Part shown: positions 5,746 through 16,394 of the stretch, piece after piece
Layout: every line of letters starts with the position of its first letter
Position numbering within the stretch: position 1 is the first letter of the stretch
Source of the DNA: a virus
Virus record (IMG/VR): IMGVR_UViG_3300027969_000493
Span: 1 to 20,525 of that record
Length of the DNA: 20,525 bases
Strand: one strand, 5' to 3'
Made by a program: the position numbers and the translations under genes
Notes under the pieces: model-generated
Databases searched by the model: none
The model's input: only the letters and a program-made list of their open reading frames with translations
Told to the model about the DNA's origin: nothing

Positions 5746-5750
5746 CTTTA

Positions 5751-6945: not shown

Positions 6946-6979
6946 ATTGAGGTTACCTGCACCCCTGTAGATCGGCGAT

Positions 6980-7465: not shown

Positions 7466-7467
7466 AG

Positions 7468-7881
7468 TTACACCTTTATTTCTCCATTAGCTTTATGAAC
7501 ACGTTGCCTCAATTCAGTGCTACTGAATTTATGGCGTCTTTTGTTGAAGTAAAATTCCATGTGAAGATCATCTCCAGTGAATTTTTTATTGTAATACTCT
7601 TCACCGAGTATTCGAATATCAATAGGAACTGTAGTTAGTAAATCATACAAATCATTTTCTGATCCGTATACAATTGTTTCATCAACATATCTACATCCAC
7701 GAACTTGAATTTGTCTTTCGATTAGCGATTGAACTGGTTTTTTCTTTTCAGTTCTATCAAGCGAAGGATCAATTTGAATACCTGCAATCAACCAATCACA
7801 TTGCTGTTTAGCTTCTTCAAGCATTGCAACATGACCTGCATGAAACAAATCAAAGGTTGAACAAGTAAATCCTATCTTCAT
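7468..7881 (-). CDS. Cytidylyltransferase-like nucleotidyltransferase (TagD type)
   Basis: 137-aa member of the HxGH nucleotidyltransferase superfamily, which transfers a nucleotide to a phosphorylated small molecule. The nucleotide-binding HAGH is at residues 14-17 in FDLFHAGH, and the second signature FSSTELRQR at 119-127 matches the ISTTxxR motif of glycerol-3-phosphate cytidylyltransferases and RfaE/HldE. The true substrate cannot be read from the sequence; CDP-glycerol-type or sugar-phosphate substrates are plausible. Its ATG overlaps the stop of the upstream esterase-like gene by 4 nt. Confidence 0.87.
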   Translation of the reverse strand: MKIGFTCSTFDLFHAGHVAMLEEAKQQCDWLIAGIQIDPSLDRTEKKKPVQSLIERQIQVRGCRYVDETIVYGSENDLYDLLTTVPIDIRILGEEYYNKKFTGDDLHMEFYFNKRRHKFSSTELRQRVHKANGEIKV

Positions 7882-8393
7882 TTAAAATCCTTAATATAGT
7901 TAATCACATGATGAAACTCTTTATTGAACCGATGATCGCCACCTTCAATATAAGTTACATCTGCACCGTTAAAGTCAACATCACTGAAGTCGATTACTTC
8001 GTCTGCAGTCCCGATGAATACTTTTTGCGTAGGATGAAAGTCAATCCCGATCATATAGTTCTCAAGGATACTACGATCAACACCATACTTTGCAAGTGAT
8101 TCTTTAGGATTATATGATGGATTGATCAGAATAGTTTTGATGCCATAAAGATTACCCAACAAAGAAGCATACCACGCACCGAGTGAAGTGCCCACAAAGA
8201 AGATTCGTGCAGGTTCATGCATCTCATCCATCAACATGTCATCAATTTTTTTCATCAAGACTTCAATTGACACATCCGGATTAACATCAATGTCCCACGA
8301 ATAGGTTTCAATTTCTGCATCACGCAATTGTTGAACCTTATCGGTATTTGCCGACGATCCATATCCGTGAAAGTATACTACAATTTTCTTCAT
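7878..8393 (-). CDS. YqiA-like alpha/beta hydrolase (UPF0227)
   Basis: 171-aa small esterase-like protein. It opens with KKIVVYFHGYGSSANT, which carries the oxyanion-hole HG motif. The nucleophile elbow is GTSLGAW with Ser70. The likely acid is D131 in GTADEVID and the likely base H154 in EGGDHRF, so the catalytic triad is complete. Known YqiA proteins are short-chain acyl esterases; the phage substrate is unknown. It starts 21 nt after a strong sigma70 promoter and has AAGGAG before the ATG. It leads the early operon with the cytidylyltransferase and YkuK-like genes. Confidence 0.87.
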   Translation of the reverse strand: MKKIVVYFHGYGSSANTDKVQQLRDAEIETYSWDIDVNPDVSIEVLMKKIDDMLMDEMHEPARIFFVGTSLGAWYASLLGNLYGIKTILINPSYNPKESLAKYGVDRSILENYMIGIDFHPTQKVFIGTADEVIDFSDVDFNGADVTYIEGGDHRFNKEFHHVINYIKDFK

Positions 8394-8413
8394 TTATATC
8401 ACTCCTTACATAC

Positions 8414-8442
8414 AATATACGATTAATCACAAAAGATGTCAA
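8414..8442 (-). promoter_or_regulatory. Sigma70 promoter for the YqiA-cytidylyltransferase-YkuK operon
   Basis: Minus strand TTGACA, 17 bp, TATATT. The TGA stop of the upstream 183-codon gene lies close to the -35, so the promoter is embedded at that gene's 3' end. Confidence 0.82.
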
Positions 8443-8990
8443 GAGGTTTTTGGGTGACCCATCATAGTTTTTTGATAAACTTCTTTGCCAATTTTGCGCG
8501 AATATTCATGCTCGTCACCCGGTGTAGGTGTTACGTCTTTTCCAAGTAATTCTTTAGCTCTCGAAGAAGGTATCTTTGGTACACCCATTTTATTTTGGAT
8601 GTGTAGGACTTTATGCGATACTTCACCCCAAGCTCTTTTCTGAGTATGATCTTCATGTTTTAACTTATACCAATCTTTCTTACCTTGTTCTGTGCCATTT
8701 TGTGCAGATGCAATTGACTTGCGTCCATGCTGATCCTTATACAAGTTGACAGCAGTAATTTTACCATCGCGTCTTACCGCTTTGATATTAGATTTAGATA
8801 TAGCATCATGGATTTCTTTAGATTCATCTTCTGATCCTGAAGCGTGTCCGCCGTAGCCCTTTTCGGATTCATATGACTTACGGATCATGTCGTGAATTTC
8901 TTGTCTATGTTTTTCACGCAGCTTTTCATGCGCTGGGTTAAATCCGATAGACAAGATATGTTCATTTAGGAAGGTGGAAAATGACAGCAT
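8439..8990 (-). CDS. Possible internal head protein with capsid-targeting N-terminus (183 aa)
   Basis: The N-terminus LSFSTFLNE resembles the capsid-targeting sequence of T4 internal head proteins (TYQEFIAE in IPIII). The FLNE stretch fits the (I/L)xE cleavage site of the prohead protease gp21. The rest contains GYGGHASGSEDESKEIHDAI and AVRRDGKITAVNLYKDQHGR, which resembles part of a GNAT-like fold often seen in phage structural proteins of this kind; I am unsure of this. A late-type CATAAATA at 9010-9017 and AAAAGGAG before the ATG fit a late virion gene. Packaging and injection are inference. Confidence 0.6.
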   Translation of the reverse strand: MLSFSTFLNEHILSIGFNPAHEKLREKHRQEIHDMIRKSYESEKGYGGHASGSEDESKEIHDAISKSNIKAVRRDGKITAVNLYKDQHGRKSIASAQNGTEQGKKDWYKLKHEDHTQKRAWGEVSHKVLHIQNKMGVPKIPSSRAKELLGKDVTPTPGDEHEYSRKIGKEVYQKTMMGHPKTS

Positions 8991-9009
8991 AAAATAACTC
9001 CTTTTGAAT

Positions 9010-9017
9010 TATTTATG
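9010..9017 (-). promoter_or_regulatory. Late-type promoter (CATAAATA)
   Basis: One mismatch from the T4 late consensus, 19 nt before the ATG of the 183-codon gene, leaving a leader just long enough for its ribosome site. Confidence 0.55.
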
Positions 9018-9025
9018 TGTTTAAA

Positions 9026-9107
9026 TGGTGCTAGTGGAGGGACTCGAACCCCCGGTGTGGTATGCCTCCTTACAAGAGAGGTGCTGTCGCCGCTGAGCCA
9101 CACTAGC
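9026..9107 (-). tRNA. tRNA-Thr(TGT), unusual class-II-like shape
   Basis: The CCA end is encoded and the acceptor stem GCTAGTG/CACTAGC is perfect, with A73. The loop CTTGTAA gives anticodon TGT and the G1-C72/C2-G71 pairs fit Thr identity. The variable region is 11 nt and the D stem only 3 bp, more like Leu/Tyr tRNAs. Shifting the anticodon frame by one gives GTA (Tyr), but with a worse stem. Confidence 0.75.
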
Positions 9108-9112
9108 GTGAA

Positions 9113-9589
9113 TTAATAACTTTTACCTTCTTGATAACGCAGACGTCTTGTATGTCTGCCATTACCTTTATTTTTAGCTTTATATGTCGATGTTTGACTA
9201 TGACAATTAGGACATATTAAGCAACAATTTTCTAATGTGTTGTCATCTGAATTGCCATTAATATGTTCAAGTTCCATCGAAATAGGTTTATTATTCCATT
9301 CAGTGATATTACAAACTGAACAGATATTCCCTATAGTGTTAATCAAAAACCATTTAATAGTATGAGAAGAAACTGTATTATCAGCTATTTTACTTTTTGC
9401 TTCATACATTTTTTGACAATGTGTATTGCAATATTTGTTATTACAGACTGCACCACAATTTAAACATGTCTTTACGACTTTAACTATTTTGCTTCGCCAA
9501 TGATTATTTGTATTGTTATATACTGCTGAACATTGTCTGCAGCAAAATTTATCATTAGTTGTTTCTGTTTTACAATTTAAACATTGCAT
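9113..9589 (-). CDS. HNH homing-type endonuclease with zinc ribbons
   Basis: 158-aa free-standing HNH nuclease. The HNH core spans about residues 88-132: CSVC (90-93), ELEHINGNSDDN with H109, and CPNCH (126-130), which pairs the zinc-binding cysteines with the final catalytic-type histidine. Two further Cys clusters (C3/C6/C17/C20 and C42/C45/C54/C58) suggest N-terminal zinc ribbons for DNA binding. It sits tightly between tRNA-Thr (5 nt away) and tRNA-Gly, a typical place for a homing endonuclease that moves within tRNA arrays. GGGGAG precedes the ATG and a CATAAATA lies 23 nt upstream. Base composition is more AT-rich than its neighbours, which fits transfer. Confidence 0.88.
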   Translation of the reverse strand: MQCLNCKTETTNDKFCCRQCSAVYNNTNNHWRSKIVKVVKTCLNCGAVCNNKYCNTHCQKMYEAKSKIADNTVSSHTIKWFLINTIGNICSVCNITEWNNKPISMELEHINGNSDDNTLENCCLICPNCHSQTSTYKAKNKGNGRHTRRLRYQEGKSY

Positions 9590-9612
9590 TAATCGAACTC
9601 CCCACCTAAACC

Positions 9613-9620
9613 TATTTATG
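9613..9620 (-). promoter_or_regulatory. Late-type promoter (CATAAATA) for the HNH gene
   Basis: Minus strand CATAAATA 23 nt before the HNH start codon. T4 homing nuclease genes are often under late promoters. Confidence 0.5.
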
Positions 9621-9646
9621 TATATATGAGAAGTTCGATTTTAATT

Positions 9647-9721
9647 TGGAGCGGGCGATGGGGGTCGAACCCACGACATCTAACTTGGAAGGATAGCGCT
9701 CTACCACTGAGCTACACCCGC
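9647..9721 (-). tRNA. tRNA-Gly(TCC)
   Basis: 75 nt with encoded CCA, U73, acceptor GCGGGTG/CGCCCGC and anticodon loop CTTCCAA. It reads GGA. Confidence 0.94.
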
Positions 9722-9732
9722 ATGAATATGGT

Positions 9733-9752
9733 CCAGTTATTAAGGAAACTGG
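9733..9752 (-). other. Hairpin between the 151-codon gene and tRNA-Gly
   Basis: CCAGTT/AACTGG arms, 6 bp with an 8-nt loop and no T run. It could be an RNA processing site rather than a terminator. Confidence 0.4.
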
Positions 9753-9765
9753 CAAACCTTCGTTT

Positions 9766-9773
9766 TATTTATG
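9766..9773 (-). promoter_or_regulatory. Late-type CATAAATA at the end of the 151-codon gene
   Basis: Overlaps the TAA stop of the upstream gene. It could start a transcript through tRNA-Gly. This is motif evidence only. Confidence 0.4.
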
Positions 9774-10224
9774 CAGGCAATTCACACCACTGCTGAATTT
9801 TTTGTTTCAAAACTGCAGTTGCTTCATGTTTATTTTTCTCACGATTCCAAATCCGATCACCATCTTGCTTACCGTATTTTGCTACCATAGCCCATATACG
9901 AGGTAAGGTTAAGATTTGAAAGTATGACTCGTTTTCAGGCTTACGCTTTTGTTCGACTGATGTATAAGGCACGCCAGCAATATAAGCACGAGCAAGAAAG
10001 GTAGCACGATTTTCATTACGAACATCCCATTTACGATGTTGATTCAATGAATAATAAGCGCTGAACGCTTTATCATCCCAACGAGGATACATACCATTGT
10101 TTCCAGCAGCATGCCATTGTTTCAATCCCCACTGATATTGTTTGAGTTGTTTACGCTCTTCAAAACGAATGATACGAGCTTCTTCAGAAAGATGTTTAGA
10201 TTTTACTTTAAGTTCTACAGACAT
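9769..10224 (-). CDS. Hypothetical phage protein (151 aa)
   Basis: Not recognised. It is a basic, aromatic-rich soluble protein: an N-terminal lysine/glutamate helix, then QWGLKQWHAAGNNGMYPRWD, NQHRKWDVRNENRATFLARA and a C-terminal KKYG-like segment ending in a lysine-rich helix. It has no signal peptide, no membrane segment and no cysteine cluster. AGGAG precedes the ATG but lies at the base of a 10-bp hairpin (10234-10275), so translation may be controlled by RNA structure. It is flanked by tRNA genes on both sides. Confidence 0.75.
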   Translation of the reverse strand: MSVELKVKSKHLSEEARIIRFEERKQLKQYQWGLKQWHAAGNNGMYPRWDDKAFSAYYSLNQHRKWDVRNENRATFLARAYIAGVPYTSVEQKRKPENESYFQILTLPRIWAMVAKYGKQDGDRIWNREKNKHEATAVLKQKIQQWCELPA

Positions 10225-10233
10225 TTTATTCTC

Positions 10234-10275
10234 CTAAATTGATTTCAAGTTGTTTATGTTGAAAGATCAATTTAG
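10234..10275 (-). promoter_or_regulatory. Hairpin at the ribosome site of the 151-codon gene
   Basis: On the minus strand the arms CTAAATTGAT and ATCAATTTAG pair perfectly over 10 bp. They continue after a bulge into TTTCAA/TTGAA, closing a 10-11-nt loop. The 3' arm ends in the first bases of the AGGAG that serves the ATG at 10224, so the folded form should partly mask the ribosome site. Confidence 0.6.
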
Positions 10276-10289
10276 GGTGGACCAGTAAT

Positions 10290-10307
10290 CTACGAGTTAT
10301 CGCTCAT
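10290..10307 (-). other. Five-codon mini-ORF with a strong ribosome site
   Basis: AAGGAG at ideal spacing precedes ATG and the codons for MSDNS, then TAG. It is either a minicistron or the start of a truncated gene. It lies between a tRNA-like gene and the translational hairpin of the next gene. Confidence 0.3.
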
Positions 10308-10328
10308 TGTAGTTCTCCTTGTTAGTAT

Positions 10329-10404
10329 TGGTGGGCCTACTGGGACTCGAGCCCAGATAGTTCGTTTTAGAGGCGACTGCATACACCGTTCATGCTCTAG
10401 ACCC
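10329..10404 (-). tRNA. tRNA-like gene, apparent anticodon CTA (possible amber suppressor)
   Basis: Encoded CCA, perfect acceptor stem GGGTCTA/TAGGCCC, T arm CTGGG/CCCAG and D stem GCAT/ATGC. The best anticodon loop is CTCTAAA, giving CTA, which would read UAG. The anticodon stem has mismatches at both ends (27-43 and 31-39) and position 8 is G instead of the near-universal U. It may be a degenerate tRNA rather than a working suppressor. Reading it as Arg(TCT) would need C at position 33 and a broken stem. Confidence 0.5.
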
Positions 10405-10408
10405 AAAT

Positions 10409-10482
10409 TGGTGCTGCTAGGAAGAATCGAACTTCCATCTCATCCGTACCAAGGATGTGTATTACCACTAGACGATAGCAGC
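10409..10482 (-). tRNA. tRNA-Thr(GGT)
   Basis: Encoded CCA, acceptor GCTGCTA/TAGCAGC with A73, and anticodon arm CATCC-TTGGTAC-GGATG. It reads ACC/ACU. Confidence 0.92.
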
Positions 10483-10483
10483 G

Positions 10484-10699
10484 TTATTCGTATTCGTATT
10501 GGTCGATGCGTTTTTCTTGCATCGTCTTATCGTTCCAGTGCTTGCGAGGATTGCCGCACATATGACAAGAACAATTGTGTGGAGTATGAGCTAACTGTCC
10601 TATCGAAGATTCATCAAGAGGTCGCCAAGGAGAAAAGATCTTAACAACCCATTTCTTCTTTTTGATTTCCTGGAAACGACGAAACGCACGATCACGCAT
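10484..10699 (-). CDS. Small conserved phage protein with CSCHMCGNPR motif (71 aa)
   Basis: Basic N-terminus (MRDRAFRRFQEIKKKK) followed by a compact Cys/His cluster, NCSCHMCGNPRKHW, which probably binds zinc. I recognise this pattern from small proteins encoded among phage tRNA genes, but no function is known. AGGAGG is well placed before the ATG. Its stop lies 1 nt before the 5' end of tRNA-Thr(GGT), and it follows a tiny membrane-protein ORF. Confidence 0.78.
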   Translation of the reverse strand: MRDRAFRRFQEIKKKKWVVKIFSPWRPLDESSIGQLAHTPHNCSCHMCGNPRKHWNDKTMQEKRIDQYEYE

Positions 10700-10708
10700 A
10701 TAGTCCTC

Positions 10709-10837
10709 CTATTTTTTAGTAGTAAGCTCTATCAACATTTGATGATTTGATCTAGTAGACATAAGATTACTAATAGCTAAACCGAAGTTAACTATGACAG
10801 TAAATGGTAACAGAATAGACCAAATCTTCTTTAGCAT
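10709..10837 (-). CDS. Tiny single-span membrane protein (42 aa)
   Basis: ORF from ATG to TAG. A positive start (MLKKIW) leads into one hydrophobic segment, SILLPFTVIVNFGLAISNLM, then a polar tail ending TTKK: a typical N-in single-span shape. It ends 9 nt before the next gene's start codon, and its last codons and stop hold that gene's AGGAGG. Its own ribosome site is weak (AAGAAAGAAG). The function is unknown. Confidence 0.55.
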   Translation of the reverse strand: MLKKIWSILLPFTVIVNFGLAISNLMSTRSNHQMLIELTTKK

Positions 10838-10851
10838 AACTTCTTTCTTAT

Positions 10852-10933
10852 TGGTGCGGATGGAGAGACTCGAACTCTCACCCCGGAGGACTAGTTCCTA
10901 AGACTAGCGTGGCTACCGTTACACCACATCCGC
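10852..10933 (-). tRNA. tRNA-Leu(TAG)
   Basis: Class II, encoded CCA, acceptor GCGGATG/CATCCGC, A73, anticodon arm CTAGT-CTTAGGA-ACTAG and an 11-nt variable region. It reads CUA and probably other CUN codons. Confidence 0.92.
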
Positions 10934-10954
10934 ATTTTTCTTTTTTCTCCATAA

Positions 10955-11029
10955 TGGTAGTCCGTATCTGGATCGAACAGATGACCTACTCCGTGTAAAG
11001 GAGGTGCGCTACCGCTGCGCTAACGGACC
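10955..11029 (-). tRNA. tRNA-Val(TAC)
   Basis: Encoded CCA, acceptor GGTCCGT/ACGGACT with a G1-U72 wobble, anticodon loop TTTACAC. It reads GUA. Confidence 0.88.
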
Positions 11030-11035
11030 ATAATT

Positions 11036-11109
11036 TGGCGAGGGTGCAGAGAGTCGAACTCTGGCTTGCGGTTTTGGAGACCACCGTGCTACCATAACAC
11101 TTCACCGAC
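11036..11109 (-). tRNA. tRNA-Trp(CCA), imperfect acceptor stem
   Basis: The GGT-CTCCAAA-ACC anticodon arm and G73 identify tRNA-Trp. The acceptor stem GTCGGTG/CACCCTC is mismatched at pairs 2-71 and 3-70, and position 8 is not U. It may be decaying, or need editing or repair. Confidence 0.78.
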
Positions 11110-11111
11110 AT

Positions 11112-11186
11112 TGGAGCGGATAACGGGATTCGAACCCGTGACCGTCTGCTTGGCAAGCAGAAGCTCTACCCCTGAGCTACATCCGC
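11112..11186 (-). tRNA. tRNA-Gly(GCC)
   Basis: Encoded CCA, U73, acceptor GCGGATG/TATCCGC, anticodon arm CTGC-TTGCCAA-GCAG. It ends 2 nt before the PAAR gene's stop codon. Confidence 0.93.
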
Positions 11187-11188
11187 AT

Positions 11189-11488
11189 TTAACCTACAAA
11201 AACAGTTGACTCACCTGATGTGATACTACCTGCGTCACACGCATCAGATACTCTTGCGACACCTATGCCACCAATGAATACCGTTGCTGAACTGCCACCT
11301 ATTGAAGCAGTATGTGGAACACAAGGTGTGCCAACTTTAATCTGATGAACTACTGTCGGATCGCCTAAACAAGCGACCAATTTGCCGCCTGCGAATACTT
11401 TGCTTTGTGATGGTGTGTCGAGCGTTGTCGCGCCATCGCATAGATGACCCGTTGCAACTGACGAACCTTGAACCGCTACCACTGGCAT
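11189..11488 (-). CDS. PAAR-repeat spike tip protein
   Basis: 99-aa PAAR protein that should cap the baseplate spike as the sharp tip used to pierce the host envelope, the role of T4 gp5.4. It is glycine-rich with repeated short beta segments: SVATGHLCDG, SKVFAGGKLVACLGDPTVVHQ, CVPHTASIGGSSATVFIGG and VARVSDACDAGS. The conserved His and Cys residues fit the zinc site at the PAAR tip. AAGGA precedes the ATG. It lies downstream of tRNA-Ser, tRNA-Ala and a perfect late promoter (11683-11690), so this virion gene is probably read together with those tRNAs late in infection. Confidence 0.93.
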   Translation of the reverse strand: MPVVAVQGSSVATGHLCDGATTLDTPSQSKVFAGGKLVACLGDPTVVHQIKVGTPCVPHTASIGGSSATVFIGGIGVARVSDACDAGSITSGESTVFVG

Positions 11489-11502
11489 TTTTTTTCCTTA
11501 TA

Positions 11503-11590
11503 TGGCGGAAAGCGTGAGATTCGAACTCACGGAACCTTTCGGTTCGGCAGTTTTCAAGACTGCAGGCATAAACCACTCGCCCAGCTTTCC
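11503..11590 (-). tRNA. tRNA-Ser(TGA)
   Basis: Class II, encoded CCA, G73, acceptor GGAAAGC/GCTTTCC, anticodon arm GCAGT-CTTGAAA-ACTGC. It reads UCA. Confidence 0.94.
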
Positions 11591-11597
11591 GTAATTT

Positions 11598-11673
11598 TGG
11601 TGGAGAATATCGGTCTCGAACCGATCACCTATTGCTTGCAAAGCAATTGCTCTCCCAGATGAGCTAATTCCCC
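11598..11673 (-). tRNA. tRNA-Ala(TGC)
   Basis: Encoded CCA, A73, acceptor GGGGAAT/ATTCTCC, anticodon arm ATTGC-TTTGCAA-GCAAT. It begins about 10 nt after a perfect late promoter. Confidence 0.93.
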
Positions 11674-11682
11674 GTTGTCTTA

Positions 11683-11690
11683 TATTTATA
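11683..11690 (-). promoter_or_regulatory. T4-type late promoter ahead of tRNA-Ala, tRNA-Ser and PAAR
   Basis: Minus strand TATAAATA, perfect consensus. The start site would lie just before tRNA-Ala, giving a late transcript that carries two tRNAs and the PAAR gene. Confidence 0.72.
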
Positions 11691-11691
11691 C

Positions 11692-11755
11692 AGGATCGTT
11701 TTTGTCCGCTAAGACTATTCAAATGATTTAGCGTTTTGTTTGCTGAACCGATCCT
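11692..11755 (-). ncRNA. Hairpin-bounded spacer S1
   Basis: 64-nt element closed by a 7-bp stem AGGATCG/CGATCCT with an inner 6-bp stem CGCTAA/TTAGCG. It shares GTTCAGCAAA right after the closing stem, and an AACGCTAAA block, with S2 at 12368-12432. It lies between tRNA-Pro and a late promoter and has no T run, so it is not an obvious terminator. Confidence 0.5.
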
Positions 11756-11761
11756 AAATTT

Positions 11762-11836
11762 TGGTCAGGGTGACAAGGATTGAACTTGCGGCTTCTTCAT
11801 TCCAAGTGAAGCACTCTACCACTGAGCTACACCCTG
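11762..11836 (-). tRNA. tRNA-Pro(TGG)
   Basis: Encoded CCA, A73, acceptor CAGGGTG/CACCCTG, anticodon arm CTTCA-CTTGGAA-TGAAG. It reads CCA and probably other CCN codons. Confidence 0.93.
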
Positions 11837-11837
11837 A

Positions 11838-12119
11838 TTATTTCTTCTTTTTCTTCTTCTTGATACCACTGTAATAGTGTTCAGCGATACCATCGTATTG
11901 ATTGATAGCATGGTTAATCAACTGCCATTTGATCCACGCATCTTCACAGTGATCTTTTTCCCACCAGAAAATTGCGTCAATCAATCTGACAAAGTTCCAT
12001 TTATTCTTTCGTTTACGCTGCCATTGTCCTGCGCTAAGAGTTTGATTGTTCTTACCGCCGACAAGAGCGTTCATAAGGATACTGAATGCGATAAACACTC
12101 TTGAGAAATATTTACCCAT
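11838..12119 (-). CDS. Small conserved phage protein with N-terminal membrane segment (93 aa)
   Basis: Starts with a hydrophobic segment (FSRVFIAFSILMNALVGG), then KNNQTLSAGQWQRKRKNKWN, a LIDAIFWWEKDHCEDAWIKW stretch and an unusual C-terminus of seven lysines. The combination of GGKxNQTxSA, an ID motif and HCExxW matches a family of small conserved phage proteins that I recognise but cannot assign a function; an inner-membrane role in lysis or host takeover is only a guess. AAAGGTG precedes the ATG. The stop lies 1 nt before tRNA-Pro. Confidence 0.75.
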   Translation of the reverse strand: MGKYFSRVFIAFSILMNALVGGKNNQTLSAGQWQRKRKNKWNFVRLIDAIFWWEKDHCEDAWIKWQLINHAINQYDGIAEHYYSGIKKKKKKK

Positions 12120-12136
12120 TCAGCACCTTTGATATT

Positions 12137-12212
12137 TGGCTCCCAGTGCAGGGCTCGAACCTGCGACACTCTGATTAACAGTCAGATGCTCTACCAACTG
12201 AGCTAACTGGAA
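12137..12212 (-). tRNA. tRNA-Asn(GTT)
   Basis: Encoded CCA, G73, acceptor TTCCAGT/ACTGGGA, anticodon loop CTGTTAA. It reads AAC/AAU. Confidence 0.92.
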
Positions 12213-12221
12213 ACATTGTTT

Positions 12222-12297
12222 TGGTTGCGGTGGGGAGGACTCGAACCTCCGATTTACTGGTTATGAGCCAGTCGAGATGCCTCTTCTCTACCCCGCA
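12222..12297 (-). tRNA. tRNA-Met(CAT)
   Basis: Encoded CCA, A73, acceptor TGCGGGG/CACCGCA with one mismatch at 6-67, anticodon arm CTGG-CTCATAA-CCAG. The GCGGGG acceptor recalls initiator tRNA, but the anticodon stem lacks the full run of three G-C pairs, so I call it elongator-type Met. An Ile(CAU) with modified C34 cannot be excluded. Confidence 0.85.
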
Positions 12298-12321
12298 ATG
12301 ATTCTTTTCATCGTTGTATTA

Positions 12322-12350
12322 TATATACGACATTTTGTTATTAATGTCAA
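12322..12350 (-). promoter_or_regulatory. Sigma70 promoter inside the tRNA array
   Basis: Minus strand TTGACA, 17 bp, TATATA (a TATAAT is also present 2 bp farther on). It would start about 20 nt before tRNA-Met and restart transcription of the lower part of the array. Confidence 0.75.
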
Positions 12351-12367
12351 GACATTTTTTGTTCAAC

Positions 12368-12432
12368 GGGATGATTTTTTAGCGTTTACAAATTACAAGT
12401 TTGTTGCTTAAAAATTTTGCTGAACTCATCCC
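12368..12432 (-). ncRNA. Hairpin-bounded spacer S2, armless-tRNA-like
   Basis: 65-nt element closed by the 7-bp stem GGGATGA/TCATCCC. It contains a perfect anticodon-type arm ACAAA-CTTGTAA-TTTGT (anticodon TGT, Thr) at 12388-12404. No D or T arm and no CCA are present. It shares GTTCAGCAAA and AACGCTAAA with S1. It lies between tRNA-Asp and a sigma70 promoter. Confidence 0.5.
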
Positions 12433-12438
12433 TAATTT

Positions 12439-12512
12439 TGGCGACTCTAGGGGGACTCGAACCCCCTTCGTTCGGTGGACAGCCGAAGGTAATACCCATA
12501 TACGATAGAGCC
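12439..12512 (-). tRNA. tRNA-Asp(GTC)
   Basis: Encoded CCA, G73, acceptor GGCTCTA/TAGAGTC, anticodon arm TTCGG-CTGTCCA-CCGAA. It reads GAC/GAU. Confidence 0.94.
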
Positions 12513-12516
12513 AATT

Positions 12517-12894
12517 TCAGTATAGAATGGTCATCTGCACATCGCAAACTCCCTTTTCGATACAACCTAGCGCTTTAGCAGCGCCTTTTGATAGGTCGAT
12601 TTCTCTGCCTTTGATGAATGGTCCTCTGTCATTGATTCTCACAATAACAGATTTATCTTCATATGTCAACAACAAAATCGTTCCGAAGGGTAGATTTTTA
12701 TGCGCTGCTGTTAATCCGTTAGGATTAAAGTGTTCTCCATTCGCAGTCACTTTGCCATGTTTATACCATGACGCTTTAACTACACGACCGCTTTCTGCTA
12801 TACAGGAAGGTTCGAAAGTTGCAAAGGAACCATTCACAGTCGTGGGAGAACTCATCAAAGACGCCATCAGCAATAATGCTGCTATGCGTTTCAT
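12517..12894 (-). CDS. Secreted RlpA-like double-psi beta-barrel protein
   Basis: 125-aa protein with an N-terminal signal peptide ([13 protein letters not shown]) and a full RlpA-type double-psi beta-barrel: [43 protein letters not shown] and [16 protein letters not shown]65 and D89 sit where the catalytic residues of RlpA lytic transglycosylases lie. It lacks the SPOR domain of bacterial RlpA and shows no clear lipobox, so it should be exported free to the periplasm. A role in peptidoglycan cleavage during lysis is plausible but inferred. AAAGGC precedes the ATG. It is embedded between tRNA-Arg(TCG) and tRNA-Asp(GTC). Confidence 0.9.
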
Positions 12895-12918
12895 GAGTTG
12901 CCTTTCTTCTTAGTTTCT

Positions 12919-12993
12919 TGGTGCTCCTAGCAGGACTCGAACCCGCAACATACGGTTTCGAAGACCGCCGCTCTTCCGTTGAGCTATAGAAGC
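12919..12993 (-). tRNA. tRNA-Arg(TCG)
   Basis: Encoded CCA, A73, acceptor GCTTCTA/TAGGAGC, canonical D arm, anticodon loop CTTCGAA. It reads CGA. The acceptor is identical to that of tRNA-Arg(TCT) at 13242. Confidence 0.93.
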
Positions 12994-12999
12994 ATTGTC

Positions 13000-13077
13000 T
13001 GGAGGTGTGGGTGAGATTCGAACTCACGACTTTATGGATTTGCAATCCATTCCCTTGGGCCACTCGAGCACCACACC
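13000..13077 (-). tRNA. tRNA-Cys(GCA)
   Basis: Encoded CCA, U73, perfect acceptor GGTGTGG/CCACACC, anticodon arm ATGGA-TTGCAAA-TCCAT. Confidence 0.93.
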
Positions 13078-13085
13078 ATAAACAC

Positions 13086-13114
13086 ACATTACAGTGTATT
13101 AGTATTTATGTCAA
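13086..13114 (-). promoter_or_regulatory. Overlapping sigma70 -35 and late-type promoter
   Basis: The minus strand reads TTGACATAAATACT: a consensus -35 TTGACA fused to the late motif CATAAATA (13103-13110). A weak -10 TAATGT lies 17 bp on. It could serve tRNA-Cys, tRNA-Arg(TCG) and the RlpA-like gene both early and late. Confidence 0.5.
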
Positions 13115-13136
13115 CCAGAGAATTTTTTATTTCCGG

Positions 13137-13154
13137 TGCGCGAAAAGTCGCGCA
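13137..13154. other. Perfect 7-bp hairpin TGCGCGA/TCGCGCA
   Basis: Loop of four bases, GC-rich, between tRNA-His and the composite promoter. It has no T run on the tRNA strand, so it is more likely a processing or blocking structure than an intrinsic terminator. Confidence 0.45.
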
Positions 13155-13159
13155 TGAAT

Positions 13160-13234
13160 TGGTACTGGATAGTGGGATCGAACCACGTCCACCTCAGTCA
13201 CAGTGAGGGATGCAACCATTACACCTTATCCAGC
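13160..13234 (-). tRNA. tRNA-His(GTG)
   Basis: Encoded CCA, anticodon arm CCTCA-CTGTGAC-TGAGG, acceptor GCTGGAT/ATCCAGT with G1-U72. The usual G-1:C73 pair of His tRNAs is not obvious. Confidence 0.88.
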
Positions 13235-13241
13235 ATTGTAT

Positions 13242-13312
13242 TGGAGCTCCTAGAAGGAATCGAACCTTCCTTTTTTGGCTTAGAAGACCTAACCCGTCCC
13301 AGCGGTAGAAGC
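13242..13312 (-). tRNA. tRNA-Arg(TCT), shortened D region
   Basis: 71 nt with encoded CCA. The acceptor GCTTCTA/TAGGAGC and T arm GAAGG/CCTTC are intact and the loop CTTCTAA gives TCT. The linker bases 8-9 and normal D arm are missing (a 3-bp CCG/CGG stem follows the acceptor directly) and the anticodon stem has an A-A mismatch. It is probably a degenerate paralogue of tRNA-Arg(TCG). Confidence 0.7.
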
Positions 13313-13318
13313 ATATTA

Positions 13319-13391
13319 TGGCGCTCCCGGAATGAGTCGAACATTCGTAAGCAGGCTTCGTAGACCCGCCACCGGATCCGCCGGCGAAAGC
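13319..13391 (-). tRNA. tRNA-Arg(ACG)
   Basis: Encoded CCA, G73, acceptor GCTTTCG/CGGGAGC, T arm GAATG/CATTC, anticodon loop CTACGAA. A34 would need inosine modification to read CGN. The D arm is unusual and position 8 is not U. Confidence 0.75.
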
Positions 13392-13396
13392 ATTAT

Positions 13397-13470
13397 TGGT
13401 ATCCTTGAATGGAATCTAACCATTGCCCCTATCGTGTCGAGATAGTGTCCTCACATTAGACGACAAGAAT
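13397..13470 (-). tRNA. tRNA-Val(GAC), C33 variant
   Basis: Encoded CCA, acceptor ATTCTTG/CAAGGAT, T arm AATGG/CCATT and anticodon stem CTATC/GATAG perfect. The loop TCGACAC gives GAC but has C instead of the near-universal U at position 33. Confidence 0.72.
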
Positions 13471-13490
13471 ATAAATTTCTGACAACAAGT

Positions 13491-13559
13491 AAAACACAAT
13501 GGGACTCGAACCCATATCTCCCCCTTCCGGGGGCGTCATATCCATTAAACCATGCGTAA
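13491..13559 (-). pseudogene. Degraded tRNA-Arg-like element with collapsed anticodon loop
   Basis: A good T arm ATGGG-TTCGAGT-CCCAT and an Arg-type D region (GTTTAATGGATATGAC) are present. The anticodon arm is a 5-bp CCCCC/GGGGG stem closed by only GGAA, leaving no 7-nt loop. The outer acceptor pairs fail and no CCA is encoded. It probably derives from an Arg(CCN) tRNA. Confidence 0.55.
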
Positions 13560-13572
13560 CATTCTTCAAGCC

Positions 13573-13649
13573 CTTTTCTTAAGTTAGAGTTGCCGCTCTA
13601 TTAGAAGTAACGAAAAGAAGCCTTGTTGTCAAGGGACCGGCAAGTCCCT
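13573..13649 (-). ncRNA. Structured spacer S6 with complementary hairpin loops
   Basis: Two hairpins: AGGGAC-TTGCCG-GTCCCT (13632-13649) and TAGAG-CGGCAA-CTCTA (13585-13600) as read on the minus strand. Their 6-nt loops TTGCCG and CGGCAA are exactly complementary, so they could form a kissing complex. A CTTTTC/GAAAAG helix encloses the second hairpin. The element lies between tRNA-Glu and the Arg-like relic. A TTGACA lies beside the first hairpin, but I see no convincing -10. Confidence 0.55.
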
Positions 13650-13656
13650 ATTCTAT

Positions 13657-13731
13657 TGGTACACCCAACGGGAGTTGAACCCGTCTCTACAAATTGAAAG
13701 TTTGTTATCCTAGCCGATAGACGATGGGCGC
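13657..13731 (-). tRNA. tRNA-Glu(TTC)
   Basis: Encoded CCA, acceptor GCGCCCA/TGGGTGT, Glu-type D arm (TCGTCTATCGGCTAGGATA), anticodon loop CTTTCAA. It reads GAA. Confidence 0.93.
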
Positions 13732-13737
13732 ATATTA

Positions 13738-13828
13738 TGGTGGGGAATGGACGGATTCGAACCTCTTGCCGTTACCGGGACAGGGTTACAGCCTGCCGCC
13801 AGGACCACCTAGCCTTATTGCACTCCCC
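13738..13828 (-). tRNA. tRNA-Tyr(GTA)
   Basis: Class II, 91 nt, encoded CCA, A73, acceptor GGGGAGT/ATTCCCC, anticodon arm GCAGG-CTGTAAC-CCTGT. Confidence 0.9.
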
Positions 13829-13833
13829 AAACT

Positions 13834-13908
13834 TGGTAGTCCTAAGGTGAATTGAACACCCGACCTAAGAGTTATCAGCTCTTTGCTCTACCACTGAGCT
13901 ATAGGACC
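13834..13908 (-). tRNA. tRNA-Ile(GAT)
   Basis: Encoded CCA, A73, acceptor GGTCCTA/TAGGACT, anticodon arm AAGAG-CTGATAA-CTCTT. It reads AUC/AUU. Confidence 0.93.
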
Positions 13909-13995
13909 AAACTCTATTGTTGCGCTTCTACGAGAGGCGTTAAGAGAAAATTTCAGCCAGAAATTCTTTTAATGTGCAGCTGGATCTGACACAGT
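13909..13995 (-). other. Spacer S7 with one hairpin, no gene
   Basis: 87 nt between tRNA-Ile and the long tRNA-like element. AATTTC/GAAATT arms extended by a G-T pair close a TGGCT loop. No promoter or ORF with a ribosome site is visible. Confidence 0.35.
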
Positions 13996-14114
13996 TGGTA
14001 TCGGGCGGGGTTTCGAACCTATAGATTGTATTCTGCGTCATGAGCAGCAATCTATATTTTTTCCATTCGCATCGGAGTCATGACTCTCTTCTGCAGCACC
14101 ATGCTAGACCCGAT
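13996..14114 (-). ncRNA. 119-nt tRNA-like element with a long internal insertion
   Basis: The ends are those of a tRNA: encoded CCA, A73, perfect acceptor ATCGGGT/GCCCGAT, a D-loop-like GCATGGTGC and a T-loop GGTTCGAAACC with a short stem. The middle is about 40 nt too long. It holds a 12-bp palindrome GAGTCATGACTC and a strong hairpin (ATAGATTG/CAATCTAT around CTGC/GCAG). TCATGAC occurs twice, 40 bp apart, so a partial duplication in a former CAT-anticodon tRNA is one reading. I see no workable anticodon arm. Confidence 0.55.
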
Positions 14115-14116
14115 TC

Positions 14117-14192
14117 TGGTGGATGGTGTTGGTTACGATCCAACCTTTTGTGTTTTTCAGACACACGCTTTCACCAGATTAGCTTACCATCC
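14117..14192 (-). tRNA. tRNA-Phe(GAA)
   Basis: Encoded CCA, A73, perfect acceptor GGATGGT/ACCATCC, T stem GTTGG/CCAAC, anticodon arm TGTGT-CTGAAAA-ACACA. The T loop is ATCGTAA rather than TTC. Confidence 0.9.
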
Positions 14193-14257
14193 AAAAATTC
14201 TTCGTATTGTTGTTTTTCAATAATTATAATTTTAATATCAGGATGTTGTTCTATAAC
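14171..14257 (-). pseudogene. Possible 3' remnant of a protein gene
   Basis: An open frame of about 28 protein-like codons (containing AVIEQHPDIK and EEFLDGKLIW) runs to a TGA inside the D arm of tRNA-Phe. No start codon is available: upstream the frame enters a tRNA 5' half and hits TAG. It looks like the tail of a gene fused to a broken tRNA by recombination. Confidence 0.35.
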
Positions 14258-14288
14258 AGCAACCGCTCTACCATTGAGCTACCAAGAC
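14250..14288 (-). pseudogene. 5' half of a tRNA, broken at the anticodon
   Basis: GTCTTGG, TA, a canonical D arm (GCTC..GAGC) and the start of an anticodon arm reading CTGTTAT (Asn-like) are present. No matching 3' half follows: no T arm, no CCAAGAC strand, no CCA. Beyond it (14289-14416) lie a hairpin CCGAA../..TTCGG at 14298-14318 and no gene I can support. Confidence 0.6.
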
Positions 14289-14416
14289 ATAATTGCACCG
14301 AACACTGTCGCAGTTCGGCAGCGGATGGTTATTTAGACGTCTCCCGTTTATCCGGCCGGACTGGAGAGAATCATTCGCCATCACCCTAGTCTGTTTCAAC
14401 GTCAAAGGGCACGTTT

Positions 14417-14491
14417 TGGTGTACCGGGAGGGGATTGAACCCTCGACACGCGGATTAAGAGCCCGCTGTTCTACCACTGAACTACCGGTGC
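14417..14491 (-). tRNA. tRNA-Lys(CTT)
   Basis: Encoded CCA, A73, T arm GAGGG/CCCTC, anticodon arm GCGGG-CTCTTAA-TCCGC. The acceptor GCACCGG/CCGGTAC has one mismatch (2-71). It reads AAG. Confidence 0.88.
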
Positions 14492-14502
14492 ATTATTTAG
14501 AA

Positions 14503-14593
14503 GATACACCGCTGTGATTGTTCATCACTCAGGAATTCCGACCCTCTGACATAACAGAATGTCTTACATGCCACCTTACTGTATCGGTGTATC
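14503..14593 (-). ncRNA. Hairpin-bounded spacer S3
   Basis: 91 nt closed by a perfect 9-bp stem GATACACCG/CGGTGTATC, with an inner GACAT/ATGTC hairpin and a degraded T-arm-like GGGTCGGAATTCC. It sits 10-11 nt from the Lys tRNAs on either side. It is either a tRNA relic or a structured RNA. Confidence 0.5.
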
Positions 14594-14603
14594 ATCAAAG
14601 TAA

Positions 14604-14680
14604 TGGTGGATCGACTGGGGTTCGAACCCAGGTTGACACGGATTAAAAGTCCATCGCTAAACCAACTCAGCTACCGATCC
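14604..14680 (-). tRNA. tRNA-Lys(TTT)
   Basis: Encoded CCA, A73, acceptor GGATCGG/TCGATCC, anticodon loop CTTTTAA. It reads AAA. Its 5' part overlaps the end of the 51-codon gene. Confidence 0.93.
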
Positions 14681-14812
14681 ATTCTTCAACGCCATCTTAT
14701 CGTCACGGCGTTGAACCTTCTTGCTTTTCCCGTGAGCACCGCAAACCTTGAAGCGCATATGCTCAACATAAGGATTGCGTTGTTTAGGAAGTTCTTTCTG
14801 TTTTCGTTTCAT
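14657..14812 (-). CDS. Tiny basic phage protein overlapping tRNA-Lys (51 aa)
   Basis: ORF from ATG to TAG, with AGGG and AGAAG ahead of the ATG. It is strongly basic: MKRKQKELPKQRNPYVEHMR, then CGAHGKSKKVQRRDD. The RNPxV...GAHxKxxKxxRR pattern is one I associate with a widespread family of very small phage proteins of unknown function. The last 8 codons (AELV region) are written in the 5' part of tRNA-Lys(TTT), a second case here of a coding end inside a tRNA. Confidence 0.65.
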   Translation of the reverse strand: MKRKQKELPKQRNPYVEHMRFKVCGAHGKSKKVQRRDDKMALKNGSVAELV

Positions 14813-14942
14813 CTTCTTTTTCCCTAAATTCGACAGTGTATTTGCCGTCCGACCATTGTTTCAAAGTGTGCATATAGTACTTCCAAACACCATACTTACG
14901 ATGCACGCTGTTTAGGTAACTCAAGTTTCCCGTGTGGATCAT
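14784..14942 (-). CDS. Small unknown protein (52 aa)
   Basis: ORF from ATG to TAA with a strong AAAGGAAG at good spacing and a sigma70 promoter 25-55 nt upstream. It contains LNSVHRKYGVWKYYMHTLKQ and WSDGKYTVEFREKED, then a KTERTS tail. It overlaps the next ORF by 29 nt. I do not recognise it. Promoter, ribosome site and coding character together make it credible as an early gene that leads into the Lys tRNAs. Confidence 0.62.
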   Translation of the reverse strand: MIHTGNLSYLNSVHRKYGVWKYYMHTLKQWSDGKYTVEFREKEDETKTERTS

Positions 14943-14968
14943 GTCGTCTTCCTTTTCATCATGTAATC

Positions 14969-14997
14969 GTTATCGTATATTATCGAAATAATGTCAA
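14969..14997 (-). promoter_or_regulatory. Sigma70 promoter for the 52- and 51-codon genes
   Basis: Minus strand TTGACA, 17 bp, GATAAC (4/6 in the -10). It starts about 20 nt ahead of the 52-codon ORF. Confidence 0.6.
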
Positions 14998-15006
14998 GCG
15001 TTCTTT

Positions 15007-15078
15007 TGGTAGCGTCTGTGAGAGTTGAACTCACCCTAGATCCTTATGAGAGATCTGTCTAAACCGCTTAGAGACGCC
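15007..15078 (-). tRNA. tRNA with CAT anticodon (Met or Ile2)
   Basis: Encoded CCA, A73, acceptor GGCGTCT/AGACGCT, T arm GTGAG/CTCAC, anticodon arm GATCT-CTCATAA-GGATC. The G1 acceptor and the second CAT tRNA at 12222 make an Ile tRNA with lysidine at C34 (reading AUA) plausible; sequence alone cannot decide. The D arm is short. Confidence 0.8.
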
Positions 15079-15087
15079 ATGATTGGG

Positions 15088-15195
15088 AACGACTATAAAC
15101 AGATCATATCTTCAACTGAGCCTCACCAGAGCTTGGGAATCGAACCATCTTAGTTGTTGATGTATTTCTGACCATGTTGCAACATGTTAGTCGTT
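15088..15195 (-). ncRNA. Hairpin-bounded spacer S4
   Basis: 108 nt closed by a perfect 8-bp stem AACGACTA/TAGTCGTT. Inside are a perfect 14-bp palindrome CATGTTGCAACATG and a consensus T-loop GGTTCGATTCC without proper T-stem pairs. It lies 4 nt from tRNA-Gln and 9 nt from the CAT tRNA. It may be a tRNA relic or a processed RNA. Confidence 0.5.
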
Positions 15196-15199
15196 ATAT

Positions 15200-15274
15200 T
15201 GGATGGGGAGGTAGGATTCGAACCTACGGTACACGCATTCAAAGTGCGATGCCTTACCACTTGGCCACTCCCCA
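15200..15274 (-). tRNA. tRNA-Gln(TTG)
   Basis: Encoded CCA, U1-A72 acceptor TGGGGAG/CTCCCCA typical of Gln, anticodon arm TCGCA-CTTTGAA-TGCGT. It reads CAA. Confidence 0.92.
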
Positions 15275-15276
15275 AA

Positions 15277-15370
15277 ACTCTGTTTACACACGCACCCCAT
15301 CTAGTGGACTAATCTCAGCAAAGTGTTGGTAGGCCTACCCTCATTTGCGGGATGCATGTGAAAACAGAGT
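15277..15370 (-). ncRNA. Structured RNA S5 with a 22-position stem
   Basis: The two 22-nt arms (15277-15298 and 15349-15370) pair at 21 of 22 positions as minus-strand RNA, counting two G-U wobbles; the one exception is U-U. On the plus strand the same wobble sites would be C-A mismatches, so the structure belongs to the tRNA-coding strand. Above it a GCAAA/TTTGC helix stacks directly on the long stem and holds the 12-bp palindrome GGTAGGCCTACC; a bulge of about 20 nt carries TAGTCCACTA. It ends 2 nt before tRNA-Gln. Confidence 0.72.
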
Positions 15371-15519
15371 CATATGTTTCCAGTTCCGTCATCGCTTACG
15401 CTAGGAACAAGTTTCTAAATTTTGAAAGAGCAAGGAAGATTGATGCCATCGCTTCGTTCCTACATTGTCAACATCGTTTATTTGGTAAATAATGTCAACC
15501 ACTTTTTTTCGTCAACGCA
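15371..15519 (-). other. Leader between the attenuator and the tRNA array
   Basis: No recognisable gene. A 17-codon ORF (15396-15449, MASIFLALSKFRNLFLA) has AGGA 8 nt before its ATG and a hydrophobic product, so it may be a minicistron. Two TTGACA sequences occur (about 15466-15498), but I see no good -10 at the right spacing. Confidence 0.3.
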
Positions 15520-15521
15520 AC

Positions 15522-15554
15522 AAAAAACCCCGGGACCTTTTGGATACCGGGGTT
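15522..15554 (-). terminator. Strong intrinsic terminator ahead of the tRNA array
   Basis: Minus-strand stem AACCCCGG/CCGGGGTT (8 bp perfect) with a 13-nt loop, followed directly by TTTT. It would stop transcripts from the promoter at 15697-15725 after about 170 nt. Confidence 0.85.
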
Positions 15555-15600
15555 CTTCTTAGATCATGTGAGCAAAGTGCCGTCACATACAAAGAACCCC
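15549..15600 (-). promoter_or_regulatory. Antiterminator arm of a candidate attenuator
   Basis: On the minus strand GGGGTTCTT (15592-15600) is perfectly complementary to AAGAACCCC (15549-15557). The latter contains the 5' arm of the terminator stem, so the two pairings exclude each other. Between them a hairpin ATGTGA/TCACAT can form. Confidence 0.65.
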
Positions 15601-15660
15601 AACGAAGCCGCAGAAGCGGACCTCTTTCATATTATCAATCTGGTTAAGATAAGACGGCAT
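15583..15660 (-). CDS. Possible 25-codon leader peptide
   Basis: ATG-to-TGA ORF (MPSYLNQIDNMKEVRF.., ending GVLCM) inside the leader between promoter and terminator. Its last codons cover the antiterminator arm GGGGTTCTT, the layout of leader-peptide attenuation. AAAGG lies 11 nt before the ATG, a weak site. It may only be fortuitous. Confidence 0.35.
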   Translation of the reverse strand: MPSYLNQIDNMKEVRFCGFVGVLCM

Positions 15661-15696
15661 TGTTTCAAAAACCTTTGTTTGTTTCGTTGTTCTTAA

Positions 15697-15725
15697 TGTA
15701 TATATGATTTCTTTTCGATTGTCAA
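15697..15725 (-). promoter_or_regulatory. Sigma70 promoter of the tRNA-array leader
   Basis: Minus strand TTGACA, 17 bp, TATACA (5/6 in the -10). The -35 overlaps the end of the 76-codon gene. It is the only strong promoter above the S5/Gln part of the array. Confidence 0.8.
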
Positions 15726-15952
15726 GCGTTCTTTTGCAAATAAAATCGAATAATTTTCATATCTAGTTCGTCAAGTTTTTCACTCCACGCAGCACCATAT
15801 GCGGCTACCTTTTCGCTCACTCGTGCTAAGTTGTTTGCAATCATGTCGTTAGGATAGTCTTTTGCCATCTCTGCCATACCGAATGCAACCTTGTGGAGTT
15901 TCTGAGTGTCGATCTTGTGTTTCAATGTGTTAGTTCCTTTTGTATTCATCAT
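15722..15952 (-). CDS. Small unknown helical protein after regA (76 aa)
   Basis: Not recognised. It is predicted helical and amphipathic: HKVAFGMAEMAKDYPNDMIANN, then LARVSEKVAAYGAAW and a KLDELDMKIIRFYLQKNA tail. Start choice: the ATG-ATG at 15947-15952 sits right at the expected start site of the promoter at 15959-15987, leaving no leader, while AAAGGAA lies inside codons 4-7 at good spacing for a TTG at 15923-15925. Initiation may therefore be at that TTG (67 aa), or leaderless at the ATG. Confidence 0.68.
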   Translation of the reverse strand: MMNTKGTNTLKHKIDTQKLHKVAFGMAEMAKDYPNDMIANNLARVSEKVAAYGAAWSEKLDELDMKIIRFYLQKNA

Positions 15953-15958
15953 AAATCA

Positions 15959-15987
15959 TTTATAGAATATTCGATAAATGTTGTCAA
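15959..15987 (-). promoter_or_regulatory. Sigma70 promoter between regA and the 76-codon gene
   Basis: Minus strand TTGACA, 17 bp, TATAAA. A near-consensus promoter. Confidence 0.8.
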
Positions 15988-15995
15988 CCAGGAAA

Positions 15996-16394
15996 TCACA
16001 CTTTCTTCCGACCGATGTTGTATTTTGCGACGAGTTCCCATTGACCTTTGTCTTTGTGAGGTAGAATCTTGACCTGACTCATAGCAGCTCTTGGGTCGTC
16101 TATCTGACTTGCATCAACAACCTTGACAAGATCCCAGTCCTGTAGTAAGTTGATGATGGTGTTGCGTCTACCTTTGTCTTCGTCAGAGAAGTCAGTAGGC
16201 TTGCCATCAAGTGCAAATAGTTCCTTGAAGTGAACGATATAGTACTTGCCCTGCTTGTGCAGGATGTGGCATGATTGATATAGTTTGTTGTCTTTTCTAG
16301 AAGCTACGCCGATACGAGTCAATGTTTCTTTGATCTTGAGGAAGTCTTGTTCCTCGCCGATTCTCACCTCCACAAGTGTTTCAATTAAGTTCAT
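15996..16394 (-). CDS. regA: RegA translational repressor
   Basis: RNA-binding protein that blocks translation of many early phage mRNAs by covering their start sites; in T4 it targets genes 44, 45 and rIIB among others. At 132 aa it compares with T4 RegA (122 aa). It shares near-identical stretches such as FLKIKETLTRIGVASRKDNKLYQSCHIL and YYIVHFKELFALDG, plus the C-terminal WELVAKYNIG. The ATG overlaps the gp62 stop (ATGA), as part of the 45-44-62-regA operon. It is followed by a new promoter and, about 300 bp on, the tRNA array. Confidence 0.96.
   Translation of the reverse strand: MNLIETLVEVRIGEEQDFLKIKETLTRIGVASRKDNKLYQSCHILHKQGKYYIVHFKELFALDGKPTDFSDEDKGRRNTIINLLQDWDLVKVVDASQIDDPRAAMSQVKILPHKDKGQWELVAKYNIGRKKV

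Follow-up and report, generated by a model that had tools for sequence, protein, structure and literature searches.

A likely ribosome-mediated transcription attenuator ahead of a tRNA array in a T4-like phage genome

Gene order and the tRNA array

The window, by which we mean the whole stretch of 20,525 nucleotides that was analysed, is a piece of a T4-like myovirus genome. On its minus strand the genes run in the order gp45, gp44, gp62, regA, a 76-aa ORF, the leader described below and an array of 23 tRNA genes, the first of which lies 250 nt past the putative attenuator. Downstream of the array on the same strand come an Hsp20-like gene, DNA polymerase (gp43), UvsX and a DnaB-like helicase. 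Hsp20 and polymerase directly follow regA in a related Synechococcus phage, so the array in the window sits within sequence inserted between these two genes, regA and Hsp20. On the minus strand the stricter script found strong intrinsic terminators at only two places, in the leader and at 5746-5723, one on each side of the tRNA unit, which is thus bracketed by them; a laxer scan of the window returned a few additional weaker sites.

15722 to 15952, minus strand: 76-aa ORF upstream of the leader, with its own promoter TTGACA-N17-TATAAA at 15987
6759 to 15274, minus strand: tRNA array of 23 genes, tRNA-Gln first and tRNA-Ser last, with small ORFs interspersed
5723 to 5746, minus strand: second intrinsic terminator, which closes the array unit and precedes DNA polymerase

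Directly 5' of tRNA-Gln, positions 15277-15370 hold a 22-nt inverted repeat (86%) whose arms are 50 nt apart, and a related phage contig (L171) has a comparable long stem 5' of its first tRNA, with the tRNA T-arm-like GGTTCGAATCC. These could be processing stems or decayed tRNAs.

A leader with two competing hairpins precedes the array

15697 to 15725, minus strand: leader promoter, -35 TTGACA at 15725-15720, 17-nt spacer, -10 TATACA at 15702-15697
15583 to 15660, minus strand: leader ORF of 25 codons, MPSYLNQIDNMKEVRFCGFVGVLCM, with ATG at 15660 and stop TGA at 15585-15583
15604 to 15624, minus strand: hairpin 0, GAGG.CCGC / GCGGCTTC, immediately 5' of segment 1
15592 to 15600, minus strand: segment 1, GGGGTTCTT, leader codons G-V-L, the 5' arm of the antiterminator
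15566 to 15588, minus strand: apical stem of the antiterminator, ATGTGA at 15588-15583 (with the stop codon inside) paired with TCACAT at 15571-15566
15549 to 15557, minus strand: segment 2, AAGAACCCC, common to antiterminator and terminator
15522 to 15557, minus strand: intrinsic terminator, 5' arm AAGAACCCCGG, 3' arm CCGGGG at 15533-15528, which with T6 at 15527-15522 makes up segment 3

A preliminary description of this stretch had claimed a near-consensus promoter, a leader of about 170 nt, a 25-codon ORF and three segments. The leader (about 170 nt), the ORF and the segments were all found on the minus strand, and the promoter claim held in part: the -35 box is perfect and the -10 box mediocre, with four of six consensus positions. 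Judged from the sequence alone, the ribosome-binding site of the ORF is weak. The 1:2 and 2:3 pairings had been described as perfect and mutually exclusive. Segments 1 and 2 are indeed perfectly complementary over 9 pairs, and the antiterminator is longer than claimed, as the apical stem ATGTGA/TCACAT extends it beyond these pairs; the terminator, AAGAACCCCGG...CCGGGGTTTTTT, contains one G-U pair. Antiterminator and terminator are mutually exclusive, sharing the arm 15557-15549. The predicted energies are -22.1 kcal/mol for the 1:2 hairpin and -18.1 kcal/mol for the terminator, and the folding of the whole leader has z = -2.3. When the leader was dinucleotide-shuffled 1000 times, only 5 shuffles paired with the terminator 5' arm as well as segment 1 does, and a chance origin of segment 1 is unlikely. 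Hairpin 0 could be a pause hairpin; three relatives (L008, L263 and L171) have a hairpin of different sequence at the same position.

A sigma-70 consensus scan from the leader terminator to tRNA-Gln detected no further strong promoter, as the preliminary description had stated, and the two extra TTGACA boxes at 15498 and 15471 both lack a -10 box. The statement needs qualification, since some tRNAs of the array have possible internal promoters. Promoter-like sites lie within the window array at 12350 and 8442, suggesting that maybe only the first 10 or so tRNAs rely on the leader alone, and in the second group of phages described below such sites occur between the terminator and the first tRNA. 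Leader control perhaps covers, therefore, only part of the transcription of the arrays. Near-consensus TTGACA-N17-TATAAT-like promoters recur along the minus strand of the window, at 15987, 15725, 12350, 8442 and 5711.

Related leaders retain the competing segments

Homologous leaders define group 1 (G1), which consists of the window, L002/L003, L008, L171/L182 and L263. L002/L003 are close to the window (89% over 960 nt), and the others are more distant. In L171, L008 and L263 the homologous promoter reads TTGACA-N17-TATAAA. L002, L008, L171 and L263 retain all three segments as well as the apical stem, while loops and upstream codons vary; the apical stem is present in all G1 relatives with different loop lengths, and L008 and L263 retain 8 of the 9 segment 2 pairs. 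Relatives that kept the terminator and lost segment 1 had been named as a refutation of the attenuator, and this outcome was not met in these four relatives, which keep both. For the pairing of segment 1 in L171, 10 of 1000 shuffles were as good. The leader ORF is retained in L002, and in L008, L171 and L263 it has 26 or 27 codons, with in-frame length variants and the same C-terminus, VGVLCM*, as in the window. The ORF spans segment 1 and does so in frame in the relatives, its translation being inferred. The tRNA arrays of L171 (13 tRNAs) and L182 (16 in the record) start about 190 nt past the terminator; the contigs of L008 and L263 are too short downstream to reveal an array.

A comparison of relatives for covariation had been proposed as a check. 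Segment 1 is invariant across the five G1 leaders, and thus no column covariation could be seen within G1. Other leaders (L224 and L226) restore the pairing with other letters. They belong to group 2 (G2), made up of L044/L224, L074/L225/L227, L226 and L228/L229, whose leaders are unrelated to G1 in sequence and have the order promoter, ORF, segment 1, terminator and tRNA array. The G2 arrays hold 9 to 38 tRNA genes (9 in L224, 38 in L225 and 36 in the L226 record). About 70 nt encoding KHEQPSYLSLAARSCFIGNGRDW are near-invariant among diverged G2 phages, and this invariance at the DNA level may reflect an additional RNA function. Just past this block, the letters of segment 1 and of the terminator arm both vary between phages. 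In L224 CCCAGGGT pairs with ACCCTGGG, and in L226 CCGGGG pairs together with two further pairs; 0 and 3 of 1000 shuffles, respectively, were as good. L225 and L228 have a weaker form of the 1:2 pairing, matched by 123-128 of 1000 shuffles.

One contig, L017, carries a third, unrelated short ORF (MVHQPKLITVCTFGNTEYARSWGSTA) with an array of 12 tRNAs downstream, and its stop codon sits in a hairpin that overlaps the terminator arm. In every leader family the stop codon lies 23-30 nt upstream of the terminator stem, and every contig that extends far enough shows a tRNA array downstream (window, L171, L182, L224, L225, L226, L228 and L017). Scanning viral contigs with further patterns and degenerate peptides gave no additional families, and two matches, L291 and L292, lacked a terminator. 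The G2 block was not found in the 84,980 genomes searched. Against named phages, the leader DNA had only chance-level BLAST matches, and three leader peptides used as tblastn queries returned either nothing or unrelated matches of low identity; thus no isolate carrying the leader was found.

Leader peptides of related phages contain nearly all amino acids

The three sequence-unrelated families encode 18-20 of the 20 amino acids within 26-32 codons. Nineteen are present in L171 and L017 (26 codons) and in L008 (27 codons), and 18 in L263 (27 codons); in G2, the first 32 codons encode all 20 in L224, L225 and L228 and 19 in L226. Random protein windows from the same phages have a mean of 13.5-15. 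Counted by tRNA decoding classes, L225 covers 27 of 32 within 32 codons, a level reached by 0 of 5420 windows of equal length from the group's own genes. Amino acids that are repeated mostly use codons read by different tRNAs (ATA/ATT, CTC/TTG, GCC/GCA, GGT/GGA, GTC/GTA). Between L171 and L008, Tyr and Cys are swapped between two places, so that each leader retains both.

So as not to select by eye, we then took each intrinsic terminator in all loci and, among the short ORFs that end at most 75 nt upstream of it, the most diverse one. The top 7 of these 255 terminator-proximal ORFs by diversity are all members of the leader families described here. Because the idea about composition had been formed before the scan, and L017 had been spotted by eye just beforehand, the scan counts as a check, not as a discovery made blind. 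An attenuator specific to one amino acid was ruled out, as no single codon is enriched.

The window peptide is only mildly diverse: it has 16 of 20 amino acids (lacking A, H, T and W; p about 0.1), and its number of decoding classes is reached by 37% of windows. The L002 peptide has 17 of 20 (p about 0.02-0.03). Thus, the reading as a general sensor rests on the relatives and not on the window alone. The preliminary description had inferred that the supply of charged tRNA is the signal, and the near-complete peptides of the relatives support this strongly, with no experimental evidence for the mechanism.

A model for control of the array

We suggest that entry into the tRNA array is most likely controlled by the leader acting as a ribosome-mediated transcription attenuator, which would sense when almost any charged tRNA runs short. 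The anatomy, the conservation, the kept complementarity, the place before arrays and the amino-acid diversity in the relatives are shown; leader translation, stalling, read-through and the biological trigger are all inferred, in the absence of RNA or translation data.

In the model, RNA polymerase would start at the 15725-15697 promoter and make a leader with the 25-codon ORF as a test. A ribosome that reaches the stop codon smoothly would cover segment 1, so that segments 2 and 3 pair into the terminator at 15522 and the array is kept off. With the ribosome stalled upstream of about codon 17, or absent, segment 1 would be free to pair with segment 2, and the long 1:2 hairpin, with its apical stem over the stop codon, would block the terminator and let polymerase enter the tRNA genes. 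Hardly any amino acid is missing from the peptides of the relatives, so the signal is probably that one or another charged tRNA, almost regardless of which, has become scarce, as might happen when host anticodon nucleases cut the tRNA pool.

We walked a ribosome footprint along the leader and folded the RNA to the end of segment 2. In the window, the terminator arm was paired upstream at 0.73-0.89 with the A site at codons 3-17 and at 0.42-0.54 from codon 18 to the stop; with the ribosome at the stop it dropped only to 0.54. The fall was sharper in L002 and L008, to about 0.1-0.3. The step came at codon 19-20 in L171 and L008 and at codon 32 in L225 and L226, which is the Trp ending the invariant block. 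The antiterminator was predicted (0.86) for the untranslated window leader. The step suggests that a completed peptide permits the terminator, and that an earlier stall or a failure to start permits read-through. L017 gave no clear step in this test, and in L224 a ribosome at the stop left segment 1 uncovered; by these predictions both fit the simple mask model less well. The mask model is static folding and is not evidence of regulation.

A bolder reading is that in several T4-like lineages a "one of each" leader, which checks almost the entire tRNA pool in a single pass, has arisen independently or been passed between them; any missing tRNA, for example one cut by a host defence nuclease, would then stall the ribosome and switch on the whole replacement array. 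On balance we lean towards this reading, by a small margin.

Alternative explanations

The leader terminator could be an ordinary one that insulates the operon of regA and the 76-aa ORF, the short ORF and segment 1 being accidental and the tRNAs having other promoters. Intrinsic terminators are common between transcription units, and the promoter-like sites inside the window array and past the terminator in G2 are in favour of this explanation. However, segment 1 exceeds 99.5% of shuffles and is retained in all relatives, its counterpart arises anew in the other leader families, the stretch between the terminator and tRNA-Gln has no consensus promoter, and the leader peptides are diverse in three families. 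We consider this explanation unlikely.

Similarly improbable is a specific arrest-peptide attenuator (TnaC- or ErmCL-like), in which a conserved peptide end stalls for one small molecule or antibiotic and not for tRNA shortage. The candidate ends are VGVLCM* in G1, where it is invariant, and the near-invariant block ending GNGRDW in G2, whose roughly 70 nt of DNA are near-identical across diverged phages. But the peptides of the three families are unrelated and share a property of composition, with no common arrest motif, and a ribosome arrested on the conserved end in G1 would mask segment 1, turning the array off instead of on.

A stand-alone small RNA or micropeptide gene with its own terminator and any function in trans is very unlikely: promoter, ORF and terminator do form a complete unit, and G2 phages have additional promoter-like sites downstream, but competition between a 1:2 antiterminator and a terminator would be pointless in such a gene, and the unit precedes tRNA arrays wherever the contig extends.

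Relation to known systems

Attenuators and leader peptides have long been known. Like the attenuators of enteric amino-acid operons (trp, his, thr, ilv, leu), the phage leader has a short ORF and alternative antiterminator and terminator structures, and the position of the ribosome on the leader would decide between them. Unlike them, it would control tRNA genes instead of biosynthetic genes, and it has no run of any one regulatory codon but, in the relatives, one of each. The layout had been likened to classic amino-acid attenuators, which we correct: the switch has three segments and so differs from the four-segment trp type (1:2, 2:3, 3:4), which terminates when untranslated. An untranslated phage leader should therefore read through.

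No Rfam family matched at its gathering score; Thr_leader (RF00506) was below threshold (22.5 bits against 55, E 0.1), and the T-box models had no match at E up to 1 within 15150-16000. In T-box riboswitches, as proposed here, tRNA charging sets read-through at a terminator; T-box riboswitches bind uncharged tRNA directly, without a ribosome or an ORF. The three-hairpin attenuator of Corynebacterium ilvBNC (PMC11857589) also has a leader peptide and competing hairpins before the regulated genes, but it is amino-acid specific, is not from a phage and does not precede tRNAs.

The reason for large phage tRNA arrays is debated, between codon compensation and rescue from tRNA-cleaving defences. Phage tRNAs have been described as a counter-defence against tRNA-cleaving immunity (PMC10264068, PMC11555353), which offers a biological reason both for the arrays and for sensing tRNA loss; as summarised, these papers concern the function of the tRNAs, not control of the array. 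If our proposal is true, opening of the array only under a shortage of charged tRNA favours rescue, and the question becomes directly testable. With nearly all 20 amino acids represented, such a leader would moreover sense translation in general, in a way that is new; attenuators are not known to sense more than one or a few amino acids. The preliminary description knew of no phage tRNA array controlled in this way, and the open-access literature searched, which leaves most subscription journals outside, contained no account of an attenuator ahead of phage tRNA genes and no leader sampling nearly all amino acids.

Other observations near phage tRNA arrays

Nine T4-like phages (L010, L015, L023, L028, L032, L038, L047, L048 and L051) lack a short leader, and the 3' end of a small-protein gene (..GLV*) can pair, via its stop codon, with the terminator arm. 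This pairing is capped by a hairpin whose sequence varies between phages while the pairing is maintained, and the layout precedes tRNA arrays in most of them; the fold of L032 is different. In the other eight the gene ends GGTCTCGTCTAA (or TGA), a variable hairpin follows, and the terminator arm (A)GGCGGG can pair with CTCGTCT. It is possible, as an inference from sequence, that this is the same logic with a real gene as the sensor.

In six of these phages (L028, L038, L048, L051, L010 and L015), GCTGTTTGACATTGTTAG or a close variant and a hairpin come after the terminator and before the first tRNA, and motifs of this type also occur in L171 at about 3960 and in the window at about 15475-15455 (minus strand). 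The motif looks similar to the boxA antitermination sites of rRNA leaders. That it is a host rRNA antitermination site was not confirmed, the phage form being present in only three unrelated genome contigs.

Two isolated phages have an annotated ppGpp synthetase or hydrolase gene lying at most about 2 kb ahead of a tRNA gene. No leader of the kind described here was found in a 50 kb stretch of XacN1, and the DLP6 stretches examined had no tRNA array.

28637 to 29275 of XacN1 (L293): ppGpp synthetase/hydrolase gene
90484 to 91092 of DLP6 (L294): ppGpp synthetase/hydrolase gene

ARAGORN listed tRNAs with a CTA anticodon as tRNA-Pyl in several arrays (L005 at 5439, L006 at 5343 and L284 at 1747), and these might be amber suppressors. 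The contig of L226, which carries a G2 leader, also has a tmRNA-like gene with the tag ANDEKFALAA at 4497-4866 on the minus strand.
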